A stretch of DNA of 24,708 nt, taken from IMG/VR virus record IMGVR_UViG_3300048121_000384, positions 1 to 24,708 of that record. One strand, given 5' to 3'. A program made the position numbers and the translations under genes. Positions 1-11,254 of this stretch are shown piece by piece; positions within the stretch are counted from its first letter, which is position 1; each line of letters opens with the position of its first letter. This DNA is from a virus. The notes below the pieces were generated by a model that made no database searches, was not told where the DNA came from, and saw only the letters and a list, made by a program, of their open reading frames with translations.

Positions 1-86
1 TGTGGCACGATCTTGACGTGATCGAGCGGTTGTGGCACGCGCGCACGCGCACGCCAAGCTGCGTCGGTGTGCGATTTCGCGCTCAA
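1..86 (-). CDS. Partial 5' end of a gene, probably terminase large subunit
   Basis: Downstream of the small terminase gene the minus strand stays open to the window edge. The most gene-like frame starts at a TTG (84-86) that overlaps the upstream TGA by the pattern TTGA, matching the 4-nt overlaps used throughout this genome. It reads about 28 residues, ending near DHVKIVP at the edge, and has GC-rich third codon positions. A competing frame starts at an ATG at 91-93 but has poorer codon positions and a Cys/Ala/Arg-rich product. The large-terminase identity is inferred only from position after the small subunit, the usual order in tailed phages. No ATPase or nuclease motif is reached. Confidence 0.4.
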   Translation of the reverse strand, partial: MSAKSHTDAAWRARARVPQPLDHVKIVP

Positions 87-1183: not shown

Positions 1184-1192
1184 ATGTTAACC
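1184..1192 (-). promoter_or_regulatory. GTTAACA box 26 nt upstream of a start codon
   Basis: The minus strand reads GTTAACATT here; the palindromic core GTTAAC (1186-1191) ends 26 nt before the ATG of the gene starting at 1159. The same core with the following A-n-T occurs at equivalent places before the genes starting at 6715 (28 nt) and 11971 (30 nt). It may be a promoter element or an operator. No convincing -35 hexamer is seen here. Confidence 0.45.
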
Positions 1193-1219
1193 ACACCCAA
1201 TCGAACCCACTGCCACACA

Positions 1220-1260
1220 CCACACCACACCACGCTATATAATAGCGGGTGGTGGTGTGG
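1220..1260. repeat. Long inverted repeat, 19-nt arms around a 3-nt loop
   Basis: The arms 1220-1238 and 1242-1260 pair at 16 of 19 positions, including a perfect inner CGCTAT/ATAGCG stem, with loop ATA. No run of T follows on the minus strand, so it does not look like a classic intrinsic terminator. A cruciform or protein site is equally possible. Confidence 0.6.
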
Positions 1261-1279
1261 AACGTGAAATGGCCTTATT

Positions 1280-1328
1280 CTCCACACTCTCCACACCGCC
1301 CCACACCACAAGTGTGGAAGGTGTGGAG
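1280..1328. repeat. Second inverted repeat, 17-nt arms
   Basis: The arms 1280-1296 and 1312-1328 pair at 15 of 17 positions (outer CTCCACAC with GTGTGGAG; inner CCACAC with GTGTGG) around a 15-nt C-rich loop. It begins four bases after the stop codon of the upstream minus-strand gene (stop at 1332-1334), so it may act as a terminator-like hairpin for that transcript, though no T tract follows. Confidence 0.5.
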
Positions 1329-1583: not shown

Positions 1584-2173
1584 AGCACCGTCGCCCCCTT
1601 AGATAAGTTGTCCTCGGCCCACAGTGGCTGCAAATTCGTGTAATTGAAACACTCGCGCTGCTGATCTGCGTTTGTTAGATCAAACGAGGCGCACGGCTTG
1701 ATGTGGTCTATGTGCCAATCGCCGTGGTTGTCCCACGTCATGCCATCTGTGAATTGCGCCTCAAGGTGCTGGCGCAGGTGCTCGACTGAGCAGCCAATTA
1801 GTATAATTGTGCGACTTGACTTAGCACCGCGCCCCTTTAGAGCACTTCTAACCCTAGACCTCTGCGAAACCATCAGCCTATACTGAATGTCTTCGCTGTA
1901 TCTTCTTGCGTGGTCTTCGCGCTGACGCTGCCTCCTCCTCTCCACATCTAAGCCAGCCATAGACTTCTGGCCTTTAAGCCACCTATCCTTTACGGTCATT
2001 TCCACCCAAACCTCCCTGCGACGCTTGTTTATAGCGTTCACTCTTTCCTTCGGCCTGTTTGGGTAGTTTTCTATATGGCGCTGCCTTGTGTTACATTTTG
2101 TTGAGCAAAACATCCTTTTGCCCTTCTTCGTAAAGAAGTTGCAGCACGTCTTGTATCCGCACGCCTTAATCAT
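1580..2173 (-). CDS. HNH endonuclease with N-terminal zinc-binding segment
   Basis: The 197-residue product ends with a standard HNH nuclease core: HIDHIKPCASFDL (about 154-166), a helix, then YTNLQPLWAEDNLSKG (about 178-193), giving the His-Asp-His, Asn and Asn-Lys positions of the family. The N-terminus has Cys5, Cys10/11, Cys23 and Cys27, a likely zinc ribbon. A basic middle region (50-95, many Arg/Lys) probably contacts DNA. I chose the ATG at 2173 because it overlaps the helicase TGA as ATGA; an in-frame ATG at 2200 would overlap by 31 nt. Freestanding HNH genes are often homing-type selfish genes, though some assist packaging. It sits between replication genes, not beside the terminase. 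Local base composition looks slightly more AT-rich than its neighbours. Confidence 0.88.
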   Translation of the reverse strand: MIKACGYKTCCNFFTKKGKRMFCSTKCNTRQRHIENYPNRPKERVNAINKRRREVWVEMTVKDRWLKGQKSMAGLDVERRRQRQREDHARRYSEDIQYRLMVSQRSRVRSALKGRGAKSSRTIILIGCSVEHLRQHLEAQFTDGMTWDNHGDWHIDHIKPCASFDLTNADQQRECFNYTNLQPLWAEDNLSKGATVL

Positions 2174-4368
2174 AGCCCCGCCTCCTCGCCAGTGATCCAC
2201 TCACCCACGACCACCACCGGCACGTCACGCCCGGTACGCAGATCCTTCTCACGCTCGATGCGCAGCACGTCGGTCTCGATCCACTTCTTCACGATTGCGT
2301 TGACCTTGGCCTTCTCGTGCTTCTTGTCGACGTCCAGCTCGAGGTGCATCGCCACGACGTTGCCCACCCAGTGCTTGGCCTGCGGGTTTTGGCGCATGAA
2401 CTCGCCGCTCTGGGCTGCCTGCCCGACGTCACGCTGCACCTTCATCGCGTCCTTGGCGCTTACGCCGTCGAAAAGGTCAGGCATTGCAAACTCGGTCGCG
2501 ACCCCGACGTATTCCCCGTTGGGCAATTTTACGCCGACCATGCGGCGGAAAACCGCCTTCGCTGCCGGCGGAGCCATATTCGATTTTCCATCATCTACCC
2601 TAAAAATACCTAAAGCCTCAGTCTCCGACACGCCCAGCTTCATCGCGTCCTCCATCGACACGCGGTTTATGACGCGCGCCGCTCTTGCTGCACTGAGTAG
2701 GGATCCAGCGCCACGGATACTGTCAGCCGTTGCGTCATCAGAACCGTTGCCCTTGCGGATGTGGTGCACGAGAGACGCCGCACAGTCGGTGACGTCACAC
2801 ACGGCGCGCACAGCCCCGACTGCGGCGTTCATCGCGACATTGTCATTCTCACCCACAGCCGTAGCAGCAACCCATGGGTCCACAGAAACCAAACCTATGC
2901 GGTTTTCCGTGATCTTGGCCGTAAGGTAGTCGACCAGCGCGTCGTCGACTGTGATGCCCTCTCGGTCCTGCCTGGCAAAGATTATGTTCATGTCGCGGCC
3001 CGCATCCAGAAACAACTTACCCCGGATCTCGTCTGCCGTGACGTTGTAGTGCATCATCGCCGCGGCCACACGCCGCTCGAGCTCCTCGTATGGATCTTCC
3101 AAGTTGATGATCCACACATTGCACGGCTCGTGCACGGGCTCACCCAGCAGCGGCCTGCCGGTGCAAATTGCCAGCGCCTCCACGATCTGCATTGACGTCT
3201 TGCCCACGCCCCCGGCGGATGCCAGCACAGACACGTTTGACCGGATGTAGTGCTGGCCGTAGATCCAGCGCCGCGCCGGTATGCTTGCCGGATCGACGGG
3301 ATCGTATGGCGTCGGGTAGCTGCGCTCGGACTGCGCGATCTCGGCCTGCACCTGCGCGACCGGCTTGGCCATCGCCAATGCCTCACGCAATTTTTCGGCG
3401 GACGTCTCCCGCAGGTAGTCGTTTGCGTCCTTGACGCCCTCTACGCCCAGCATGTCAAAGCGCACGACGTGCACGTCGGTGCTGCCGTCGCCGCGGAGCA
3501 CATCCGCCACCGCATCCACGTCTAAGTCAGGGTCAGCGCAGATCGTCACGTCGGAGGCACGCGGCACGGGATATGTGGACATGCCGGCCTTGCCAAACGT
3601 GCACACGACCGTCGCCTCGTCTCCGACCGCCTGATAGACGCTCAGTGCGTCCTCCGGACCCTCGGCCATGATGATGACGCCACCCTCGTGCTCGTCGCCG
3701 ATCCGCATGACGTTGCCGGCGATCACGCCGCGACTGTATTTGCTGATGCCGTTGTGCTCGCGCTTGTGCCCCTCGGGTGTCAGCAGCACGCTCTGCACGC
3801 CGCACACTTCTCCGCTTGGACTGAGCGCGGGAAACATGATTGCGGGGCCGTCGTATATATTCGGGCTAAACCGCGCTGCATGTGAGGCTGTACTGGCTCT
3901 CAGACCCCGTGAGTTGAGATAGAGAAGTGCCGGGCGCACGGCGTCGATGTTGTCACGGGAAATTGTGACGCCACGCTCCCAGATCTCGCGCGCCTTCTGC
4001 ATTTTCTGCGCGCGGCTCTCGTCGTCTCGGATTAGGATATCCTTGGCCGCGAGGCGCGTCATCAGGCGCTCAAACTCGCTCGGCGTGTACGGCATGTCGC
4101 TGGAGTTTTCCAGCTCCTTCGGGTTGTCGCCGCCGCGCTTAAATCCGCTGCCAATGGTGGCCCGGATCTCGTGCTCTTGTAGCCCCATCGCCTTCGCCGC
4201 GCTGTGTAACTCTCCCAAAGCGGCATCCAAATTTGCCGGCGCCAAGTGCGCGTGCCTCCCCAGACTAAACGCGGCCTTGTTTAAAATTTCGTTGCGGCTC
4301 CCCTTGATCGCGTTGGCCACGTCGGCCACAGCGCTCTCCGCGACTTTGCTGAAGTATCTTTCGCTCAT
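2170..4368 (-). CDS. Fused Toprim primase and RepA-like helicase
   Basis: This 732-residue protein should prime and unwind DNA at the phage fork. Residues 25-85 match the small helical module seen ahead of many phage primases (NEILNKAAFSLGR; HEIRATIGSGFKRG). A Toprim domain follows, with the conserved Glu in EGPEDALS (about 236) and the DPDLD acidic motif (about 279-283). The C-terminal half is a RecA-fold helicase of the RepA/AAA_25 type: Walker A SAGGVGKTS (about 384-392), INLEDP (about 421), Walker B LVSVDPW (about 493-499) and a His-His sensor in SLVHHIRKG (about 535). No zinc-binding domain is seen at the N-terminus. I chose the ATG at 4368, preceded by AGGGTGG; an in-frame ATG at 4413 has no clear ribosome binding site. 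The gene is followed by the HNH gene with a 4-nt overlap. Confidence 0.9.
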   Translation of the reverse strand: MSERYFSKVAESAVADVANAIKGSRNEILNKAAFSLGRHAHLAPANLDAALGELHSAAKAMGLQEHEIRATIGSGFKRGGDNPKELENSSDMPYTPSEFERLMTRLAAKDILIRDDESRAQKMQKAREIWERGVTISRDNIDAVRPALLYLNSRGLRASTASHAARFSPNIYDGPAIMFPALSPSGEVCGVQSVLLTPEGHKREHNGISKYSRGVIAGNVMRIGDEHEGGVIIMAEGPEDALSVYQAVGDEATVVCTFGKAGMSTYPVPRASDVTICADPDLDVDAVADVLRGDGSTDVHVVRFDMLGVEGVKDANDYLRETSAEKLREALAMAKPVAQVQAEIAQSERSYPTPYDPVDPASIPARRWIYGQHYIRSNVSVLASAGGVGKTSMQIVEALAICTGRPLLGEPVHEPCNVWIINLEDPYEELERRVAAAMMHYNVTADEIRGKLFLDAGRDMNIIFARQDREGITVDDALVDYLTAKITENRIGLVSVDPWVAATAVGENDNVAMNAAVGAVRAVCDVTDCAASLVHHIRKGNGSDDATADSIRGAGSLLSAARAARVINRVSMEDAMKLGVSETEALGIFRVDDGKSNMAPPAAKAVFRRMVGVKLPNGEYVGVATEFAMPDLFDGVSAKDAMKVQRDVGQAAQSGEFMRQNPQAKHWVGNVVAMHLELDVDKKHEKAKVNAIVKKWIETDVLRIEREKDLRTGRDVPVVVVGEWITGEEAGL

Positions 4369-4418
4369 AGTTTCCACCCTATAGTTTGGCCGCCCACCGA
4401 GGCAGGCGGCCATGTTGC

Positions 4419-10385: not shown

Positions 10386-10481
10386 TTAGCACATAAAGCC
10401 AGTTAAAGTTGCAATCATAAGCGCGCCCGCAGCGAAGCCTATTCCGGCGCCAATGAGGCCGGCCAAGTCAATCCTGTTCAT
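10386..10481 (-). CDS. 31-residue membrane protein
   Basis: A very short gene with strong start signals: the ATG at 10481 overlaps the upstream TGA (ATGA) and has GAGGAGG seven to eight bases upstream. The product is almost entirely one membrane helix with small-residue spacing (LAGLIGAGIGFAAGALM, then IATLTGFMC), flanked by MNRID. Gly/Ala-rich helices like this pack tightly and may bind another membrane protein. It closes the leftward regulator block. Function unknown. Confidence 0.6.
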   Translation of the reverse strand: MNRIDLAGLIGAGIGFAAGALMIATLTGFMC

Positions 10482-11254
10482 TCGCAGTCCTCCTCAAATA
10501 ATCCATCATACAGCGGCTTAATTGGCTGCTTGCAATACACCCACCGCCACTGCGGGCTCTTCGCCCCAGTGATCTCTACGTTATCGCGCACGCGGTACAG
10601 TTTTCCAGCTTGCGCCATTGTGTTAAGATATGACGCCGTGCGCGGTATGCTCTCACCGAGCATGTCAGCCCCCTGTGCGGCTGTTACGCGCTGATCGGGC
10701 AAGAGCATGCTAAACAGCTCTTCGCCCTTCCTGATGCCGTACTGCCTGCGCCTCTCGGCCATCTCCATGGCGCTGGGGTGCATGGTGGACGCCCTGCGAC
10801 CGCTCGCCGGCAGTGGGCCACGATTTCCCAGCTTGTGCTGCAAGCGCTCAAACTCCATTAGGCAGTGCGCGTATGTGATCTCGTACCGCTGGTGCTCGTC
10901 GGTGACGCCCTCGAGGTTAGCCATCAGTCTGGCCTCTGGGGATCTTCCAGCGCGAGTTTCAGCCGCTCGAGTAGCAAAGCCTGCTCCTCCAACCTCTGGT
11001 GCAGGTTGTACCGGGTTGTCGTTTTCGGGTCGGACAGCATGATCTGCGTTACCCGCTGAAGCCTTTTGACGATAGTATTGACTGTTGGGTCCATGTTCGC
11101 GTTTCTTTCGTTTTAGAGTTATATTTAGTTTGTTGCATATGTGTCTGACGCTGGACGGCGCGACGTGCAGCAAGTCTGCAATTTCCGTTTGTGACATGCC
11201 CTGCTCCGCGCAAAACATGACGTGACGGCTCAGTGCTTCGGGGTCATATTTCAC
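10478..11254 (-). CDS. Helix-turn-helix DNA-binding protein, putative phage regulator
   Basis: A 258-residue protein with an N-terminal HTH (about 12-45: FCAEQGMSQTEIADLLHV, then APSSVRHICNKL) followed by a basic stretch (LKRKKR). A Pro/Ala-rich linker (75-105) and a conserved-looking helical middle (YEITYAHCLMEFERLQHKLG) come next. The C-terminal segment reads like a winged helix (VTAAQGADMLGESIPRTASY to AGKLYRVRDNV). Two DNA-binding units on a linker suit a phage transcription regulator or a replication initiator-like protein. It starts with GTG at 11254, overlapping the previous TGA (GTGA). Confidence 0.72.
   Translation of the reverse strand: MKYDPEALSRHVMFCAEQGMSQTEIADLLHVAPSSVRHICNKLNITLKRKKREHGPNSQYYRQKASAGNADHAVRPENDNPVQPAPEVGGAGFATRAAETRAGRSPEARLMANLEGVTDEHQRYEITYAHCLMEFERLQHKLGNRGPLPASGRRASTMHPSAMEMAERRRQYGIRKGEELFSMLLPDQRVTAAQGADMLGESIPRTASYLNTMAQAGKLYRVRDNVEITGAKSPQWRWVYCKQPIKPLYDGLFEEDCE

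Follow-up and report, generated by a model that had tools for sequence, protein, structure and literature searches.

A hexamer array between the replication and terminase genes of an uncultured phage as a probable replication origin coupled to two primase-helicase residues

Why is a single hexamer crowded into one gap of a phage genome, and which protein, if any, reads it? The stretch of DNA analysed here (hereafter the window: 24,708 nucleotides of virus record IMGVR_UViG_3300048121_000384) raises this question, a preliminary description having reported ten copies of CCACAC/GTGTGG in 140 bp that form two imperfect inverted repeats (16/19 and 15/17 pairs). Recounting gave the same picture, with ten exact copies in both orientations within 1191-1326 (136 bp; CCACAC starting at 1191, 1213, 1220, 1225, 1282, 1291 and 1301, GTGTGG at 1255, 1312 and 1321) and inverted repeats of 84% over 19 nt (1220-1238/1242-1260) and 88% over 17 nt (1280-1296/1312-1328). 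The rest of the window held 13 copies, about 0.07 per 138 bp. The maximum for any hexamer in first-order shuffles of the window (n = 200) was 7 copies per 138 bp, and shuffles of the gap itself (n = 5000) contained 1.0 copy on average and 6 at most. As single-stranded DNA, positions 1185-1335 had a folding energy of -35 kcal/mol, shuffles giving -18.6 ± 2.6 (z = -6.3). The elements of the array are as follows:

1191-1326, no strand: ten-site CCACAC/GTGTGG array, proposed replication origin with candidate primase-helicase sites, delimited by the copies, the inverted repeats and the concerted switches in relatives
1220-1260, no strand: central inverted repeat around an A+T-rich core, possible unwinding element, with sites 1220 and 1225 facing 1255
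1280-1328, no strand: outer inverted repeat, with sites 1282, 1291 and 1301 facing 1312 and 1321, in a layout alike among the relatives listed
1185-1196, no strand: last site with the adjoining GTTAAC (minus strand GTGTGGTTAACA), kept in 28 close relatives

The A+T-rich core of the central inverted repeat reads CGCTATATAATAGCG (1233-1247, plus strand). In relatives the central dyad was kept even where its letters differed (GCTAT/ATAGC versus CCTAT/ATAGG), and over 117 arrays the arms of the best perfect palindrome averaged 7.9 bp versus 4.6 in mononucleotide shuffles, a count in which some of the best palindromes are other than the central one.

The array occupies a gap (1160-1331) bounded by two minus-strand ORFs (554-1159 and 1332-1583), so that its description as lying in a gap without a gene holds for these neighbours, though two further ORFs cross it (1144-1407, minus, 87 aa; 1257-1643, plus, 128 aa). 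Its reported place between the replication block and the terminase genes was also borne out, with one 201-aa gene separating it from the terminase small subunit (TerS); on the minus strand the order is primase-helicase, endonuclease VII-like gene, small ORF 1332-1583, array, 201-aa gene and TerS. The named genes are:

2170-4413, minus: primase-helicase, 747 aa, with DUF7146, Toprim_3, AAA_25 and a C-terminal winged-helix domain (profiles, a match to the RSF1010 RepA profile, and structural model)
1580-2200, minus: endonuclease VII/HNH-like gene between primase-helicase and array, present in only some relatives
554-1159, minus: 201-aa protein directly downstream of the array (ORF, with homologues in relatives)
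83-538, minus: TerS, Sf6 type (PF20901 Sf6_terminase, E = 7.5e-13), used as a control protein and without hexamer tracking

The 201-aa protein had no match in Pfam or PHROGs and none in the phage collection (tblastn, E up to 0.01). The endonuclease VII/HNH-like gene was found in the window and in L002, L007, L015, L017, L020, L022, L062 and L063, and had no match in others; a mobile endonuclease beside a putative origin recalls the origin-directed nuclease of ICP1. Farther away, window positions 10478-11254 encode a 258-aa helix-turn-helix protein weakly resembling D5-like transcription regulators (phrog_323, E = 2.2e-5), a region outside most of the loci fetched.

The array proved to be a nearly constant feature of related phages, as the preliminary description had suggested checking. 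Our first search returned 34 loci, and all 30 with a readable gap carried an array at the same place, CCACAC in 28 close relatives and CCGCAC in two distant ones, so that the refuting outcome named in the preliminary description, relatives without the array, did not arise in this set. In the wider set, 136 distinct regions preceding a homologue of the 201-aa gene were compared, and 131 of them contained an array of at least four like sites; among the remaining five, L073 has another array, L106 retains 3 copies, and L145, L146 and L147 are short contigs without a primase homologue. One of these short contigs, from a distant relative and without a recognised primase, contains a CCCACC/GGTGGG cluster (L145:1265-1423). 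Each of ten near-complete contigs (35.5-37.8 kb) had one dense array, other clusters of a single CCNCA-type hexamer reaching at most 5 copies, and in the rows tested, apart from the exceptions named in this report, the array lay at most 3.5 kb downstream of the primase-helicase stop codon, the position expected of an iteron origin.

The hexamer itself differed among the relatives from wider searches, to which the genome collection contributed one locus (L229), and in which we found CCACAC, CCTCAC, CCGCAC, CCACAG, CCTCAG and CCGCAG. The switch was concerted, nearly all the copies of an array changing together, and some groups had mixed arrays (CCTAAC and CCTCAC in L094-L097, for example). Through these changes the layout stayed similar over about 130 bp in the relatives listed: outer sites, facing sites, an A+T-rich palindrome with flanking sites, and a last site. 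Bases 3 and 6 of the hexamer vary from phage to phage, and the columns of neighbouring proteins could be scanned for residues that vary with them. The parts of the primase-helicase that emerged are:

2173-2508, minus: C-terminal winged-helix domain, residues 636-747, proposed hexamer reader (AlphaFold2 and fold ranking)
2233-2235, minus: Thr727 codon (ACC), the X of the wing motif R-X-G-R, whose counterpart predicts base 3 (covariation)
2380-2382, minus: Gln678 codon (CAG), whose counterpart predicts base 6 (covariation)

The coupling was assessed on 204 entries with a match to the C-terminal domain (the window and L152 included), which gave 111 rows after duplicates had been merged and three entries dropped, namely L152 (different C-terminus), L191 (141 bp available downstream) and L167, in which the domain is present and an array was absent from the 1521 bp downstream. 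Omission of L106 (array partly missing) and L136 (frameshifted) left 109, of which the 104 with at least 180 residues entered the tree and the column scans.

In these 104 distinct primase-array pairs, base 3 followed residue 727 (the X of R-X-G/A-R/K) in 102, with Thr, Ala or His accompanying A (51), Gln accompanying T (34) and Asp accompanying G (17). The two exceptions (L199 and L200) combine Gln727 with C at base 3 in the sites CCCCAC and TCCCAC; nearby, they read FYAKRQAR where relatives show FYDKRQAR. Column 727 was the best of the 731 primase alignment columns for base 3, leaving 0.107 bit unexplained against 0.570 for the next. Base 6 followed residue 678 in 104 of 104 pairs (Gln with C in 59, Arg with G in 45), the runner-up column, three residues from 678, making errors in 2 of 104. 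Residue 732 (P, Q or T after R-X-G-R-D-V) had been a candidate reader of base 6 and was abandoned in favour of 678 when L062 and the CCGCAG group broke the rule. The pairings agree with textbook contacts to the opposite strand (Gln-A, Asp-C, Thr/Ala-T methyl, Arg-G).

Other proteins of the neighbourhood predicted the hexamer less well. For base 3, their best columns left 0.415 bit (201-aa protein), 0.574 (TerS), 0.481 (exonuclease) and 0.743 (198-aa gene) and, in smaller samples, 0.320 (RuvC, 39 rows) and 0.499 (RHH protein, 33 rows); for base 6, the values were 0.318 (201-aa protein), 0.325 (TerS), 0.443 (exonuclease) and 0.417 (198-aa gene). An 83-aa ORF was uninformative, as 28 of its 29 rows share one base. 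Because column scans left 0.107 bit for the helicase wing and 0.574 bit for TerS, the hexamer switch follows the primase-helicase and not the terminase. Close relatives illustrate this: L061 and L062 have nearly identical 201-aa proteins, TerS and small ORFs, yet their arrays are CCACAC versus CCTCAC and their primase-helicases end in RTGRDVP versus RQGRDIQ. Likewise, similar C-termini with different wings (RHGR in L295 and L309, RDGR in L306, RQGR in L227) accompany A, G and T arrays, respectively.

Related rows share characters by descent, and a mere clade marker would associate with the hexamer as well, so shared ancestry without any contact has to be weighed as an explanation of the coupling. 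In a tree that leaves out the C-terminal domain, base 3 required 10 changes, as did residue 727, and base 6 required 5, as did residue 678. The independent switches are few, yet they recur with agreement: phylogenetically independent pairs concurred in 6 of 6 cases for A versus the rest at base 3 (p = 0.031) and in 5 of 5 at base 6 (p = 0.0625, the lowest value reachable with five pairs). On a tree that omitted only the last stretch of the protein, T versus the rest gave 4 of 5 pairs (one not differing) and G gave 3 of 3. The 730 other primase columns and the other proteins have the same ancestry and did worse for base 3, and the RHGR, RDGR and RQGR wings pair with different arrays within similar C-termini. 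We therefore consider it very unlikely that the hexamer and the two residues are markers of descent alone.

The rule was also written down before two further scans, and both bases fitted it in 26 of 26 testable new contigs, a figure whose effective number is well below 26 since eleven of them (L274-L279, L283-L286 and L308) are close relatives of one type. This held-out set comprised 29 contigs chosen as new by contig name, among which L288 and L314 (truncated) and L304 (147 bp downstream) were untestable; the C-terminus of L291 is identical to a known one, and base 6 of L287 is a 2:2 tie that was scored as a match. Altogether, these data showed a statistical coupling of residues 727 and 678 to bases 3 and 6, from which we infer that the C-terminal domain binds the hexamers.

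The window primase-helicase combines Toprim_3 (E = 4.5e-6) and AAA_25 (E = 3.3e-36) in one polypeptide, as a P4-alpha-type protein does, and its only sequence match in the PDB up to E = 0.01 was RSF1010 RepA (1g8y, E = 1.9e-8). Three relatives have, upstream of the primase match, a second short stretch resembling the first 32-43 primase residues (L005:2236-2346, L023:2439-2567 and L032:2206-2301). Residues 636-747 were predicted to form a winged helix with a helix-turn-helix and a wing (AlphaFold2, mean pLDDT 82.9, from alignment A5, which includes the frameshifted row L031), with helices at 18-34, 48-55 and 63-78 and strands at 82-88 and 95-101 in model numbering. The model places residue 727 (model residue 92) at the turn within the wing, and residue 678 (model residue 43) immediately N-terminal to helix 48-55, ahead of the helix-turn-helix. 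The best-ranked folds for this model were RecQ-family winged helices (Z = 7.9, a middling score), and Foldseek returned no match for it at E up to 0.001; the P4 alpha origin-binding domain was absent from the best 50 structure matches, which excludes nothing. By sequence, the domain gave nothing meaningful in the PDB, nothing credible in Pfam and no tblastn match in the phage collection (E up to 1). An Rfam search of the array likewise yielded no match near its gathering score, and the original remark that the array matches no known site thus seems fair. The full-length model was of modest confidence (mean pLDDT 73.7).

A natural swap separates the C-terminal half of the primase-helicase from the rest of the locus. 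The relative L073 keeps the 201-aa protein (52% identity) and TerS (49%), and ORFs for the exonuclease and the 198-aa gene are also present by inspection. Its primase-helicase (L073:1275-3413) is 63% identical to that of L178 over residues 1-393 and shows, among the matches listed, a weaker match in the helicase core to about residue 575; from residue 561 on, it has no match to the window protein, and its C-terminus is unrelated. Its array is also different, consisting of CGTCATAA/TTATGACG copies over about 130 bp in a layout similar to the usual one, around the palindrome TATATGCCT...AGGCATATA, the first repeat overlapping the end of the primase gene. A different C-terminus together with a different array indicates, in this one case, that the array is tied to the C-terminal half rather than to the terminase or the 201-aa protein.

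The reading that we consider probable, with good confidence, is that the array is the replication origin and that the winged helix of the primase-helicase binds its hexamers, residue 727 reading base 3 and residue 678 base 6. The C-terminal winged helix would bind the hexamers that flank the A+T-rich palindrome, the wing residue 727 specifying base 3 (Thr, Ala or His for A, Gln for T, Asp for G) and residue 678 specifying base 6 (Gln for C, Arg for G). Several primase-helicase molecules would thus gather within about 130 bp; opening of the palindrome, helicase loading and priming would follow, without a separate initiator protein. Melting, helicase loading and the origin function of the array itself are, like the binding, inferred. 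GC skew showed no sign change at the array in 10 phage contigs and nothing in two plasmids, and neither supports nor refutes an origin. Counting against the origin reading, the 201-aa protein is linked to the array almost as tightly as the primase-helicase, as the 131 of 136 upstream regions show. Host DnaA boxes were set aside by argument, a host protein offering no explanation for hexamers that follow a phage residue.

Other functions of the array must be weighed against this origin. The C-terminal domain could bind the array as an operator that controls transcription of the 201-aa and terminase genes, or of its own operon, while replication starts elsewhere. The array does immediately precede the 201-aa gene and TerS, which share one strand and are followed in relatives by a 473-aa ORF taken by inspection for the large terminase subunit (TerL), and the array contains a single weak sigma-70-like match (TTCACG-18-TATTAT). 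However, the -10-like TATTAT is altered in most relatives (TATTGT, CTATGTATAG), the candidate binder is a primase-helicase, and a single dense array was present per genome in 10 of 10 contigs, so that we judge regulation in place of replication unlikely; the same sites may nevertheless serve as operators or in partition. That the inverted repeats act in RNA, as a terminator or a processed hairpin, would accord with the strong folding of 1185-1335 and with the compensatory changes at the base of the central stem, but no terminator-like site was found at the array, Rfam gave no near-threshold match, and copies outside the stems also switch in concert, which makes this explanation hardly plausible.

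The preliminary description had named an origin, a packaging site or a transcription boundary as usual occupants of such a place, and had proposed the small terminase or the RHH protein as binders. The origin gained from this analysis, since the array tracks the C-terminal domain of the primase-helicase; packaging lost, since the TerS columns do not track the hexamer. As a pac or cos site recognised by the small terminase, the array would be in a usual neighbourhood, about 650 bp upstream of TerS. Nevertheless, neither proposed binder has columns that follow the hexamer as the helicase wing does, and the CCACAC and CCTCAC arrays of L061 and L062 stand next to almost the same TerS. The ends of the ten near-complete contigs, inspected as the suggested check on genome ends, were scattered at varying distances from the array and came no closer to it than 1.7 kb; five of the ten had short end repeats of 59-141 bp. 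Such variation fits assemblies that are circularly permuted; it does not fit a fixed genome end at the array, a candidate that we rejected on these grounds, which do not bear on a pac site. All in all, we hold a packaging function of the array to be very improbable. Contig ends less than 1 kb downstream of TerS occurred in the window (1-82) and in 8 of 34 loci (L003, L004, L005, L010, L011, L013, L017 and L035), and possibly mark a break in assembly or the vicinity of the packaging start.

Distant homologues of the primase-helicase were also encountered on plasmids. A tblastn search among plasmids gave nine records, and four among the eight listed matched well into the C-terminal domain; in all four, repeats (weak in one) occupied the gap that directly follows the helicase gene. 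The repeats were CCCCAC in Methylobacterium indicum pVL1_6 (L327; 13 copies) and in an M. lotononidis plasmid (6 copies), GCGTCA in a Rhodoplanes serenus plasmid (8 copies), and a weaker mixture with no hexamer above 4 copies in Microvirga terrae pR24_3 (L324). The residue aligned with 678 was Gln in all four, and their hexamers end in C where they could be aligned by eye; the wing is too divergent in these plasmids for a comparison at residue 727. The circular, 31.5-kb pVL1_6 carries ParA, toxin-antitoxin genes and a phage tail gene, and neither its gene table (incomplete) nor a Pfam scan of ten of its 39 proteins (the helicase and ParA included) listed another replication initiator, which indirectly supports the origin reading. 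The M. lotononidis plasmid need not use its array as an origin because it has its own repB and repC, and a 424-aa protein of pR24_3 with weak winged-helix matches could be another Rep, so that these two plasmids lend weak support. The Methylobacterium, Microvirga and Rhodoplanes plasmids (L324-L327) share this kind of replication module, and they look like phage-plasmids because phage genes are annotated on two of them, a tape measure gene on pVL1_6 and capsid, portal and terminase genes on the Rhodoplanes plasmid.

Known replication systems offer partial parallels. In P4, the alpha protein unites a Toprim-type primase, a helicase of SF3 and an origin-binding winged helix, and it acts on repeat sites without a separate initiator, an arrangement that the window protein would share apart from the helicase type; P4 has an ori plus a second repeat region, crr. 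In contrast, the helicase here is of the AAA_25 type, its nearest profile match being RSF1010 RepA, and the ten near-complete contigs have one dense array per genome and no second repeat region; moreover, the hexamers here stand in both orientations around a palindrome, in an array downstream of the gene. The accessible part of one article describes C-terminal winged helices in the P4 alpha and pRN1 replication proteins (PMC4234260). In the same excerpts, pRN1 resembles our phage in its primase-helicase with a C-terminal winged helix and in an origin downstream of the gene, a stem-loop of 100 nucleotides behind the Rep gene without iteron structure (PMC4234260). As far as that text goes, the pRN1 primase is archaeo-eukaryotic and its origin has no iterons, whereas repeats carry the specificity here. 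RSF1010 shares with our phage a RepA-type helicase and a repeat origin (PMC4234260, in the portion available), but, on that account, uses a separate iteron binder, RepC, whereas the proposed site reader here is fused to the helicase. Overall, the system is similar to iteron origins and to initiators of the P4-alpha type, except that its helicase is RepA-like.

A parallel for diversification is offered by the PLE satellites, which, in the part of the study available, have matched RepA-iteron pairs that diversify, the initiator specificity being exploited by a nuclease of ICP1 (PMC8263062). The iterons of PLE1 are described there as three semi-palindromes of about 30 bp, and the changes as module exchange or origin restructuring (PMC8263062). 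Here, in contrast, two residues predict single bases. Our literature search found no residue-to-base code for such a protein, with subscription journals thinly covered and absence accordingly unproven.

The origin and the primase-helicase of these phages thus appear to evolve as lock and key. We propose, tentatively and with somewhat more doubt than assurance, that a two-position code links the primase-helicase to the origin, such that the protein sequence alone would give the origin sequence, and that frequent switching of this code has divided these phages into origin types that are mutually incompatible. Nucleases aimed at the origin, satellites or co-infecting relatives might have driven such a conflict, in which the endonuclease gene, present in some relatives only, could take part. 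A large group of uncultured ocean phages would gain a likely origin, its reader and a specificity mechanism in one step, and would provide a natural series for how initiator-origin pairs shift specificity though about ten sites must change together. In metagenomes, origins could then be located, and the compatibility of co-infecting phages could be guessed.
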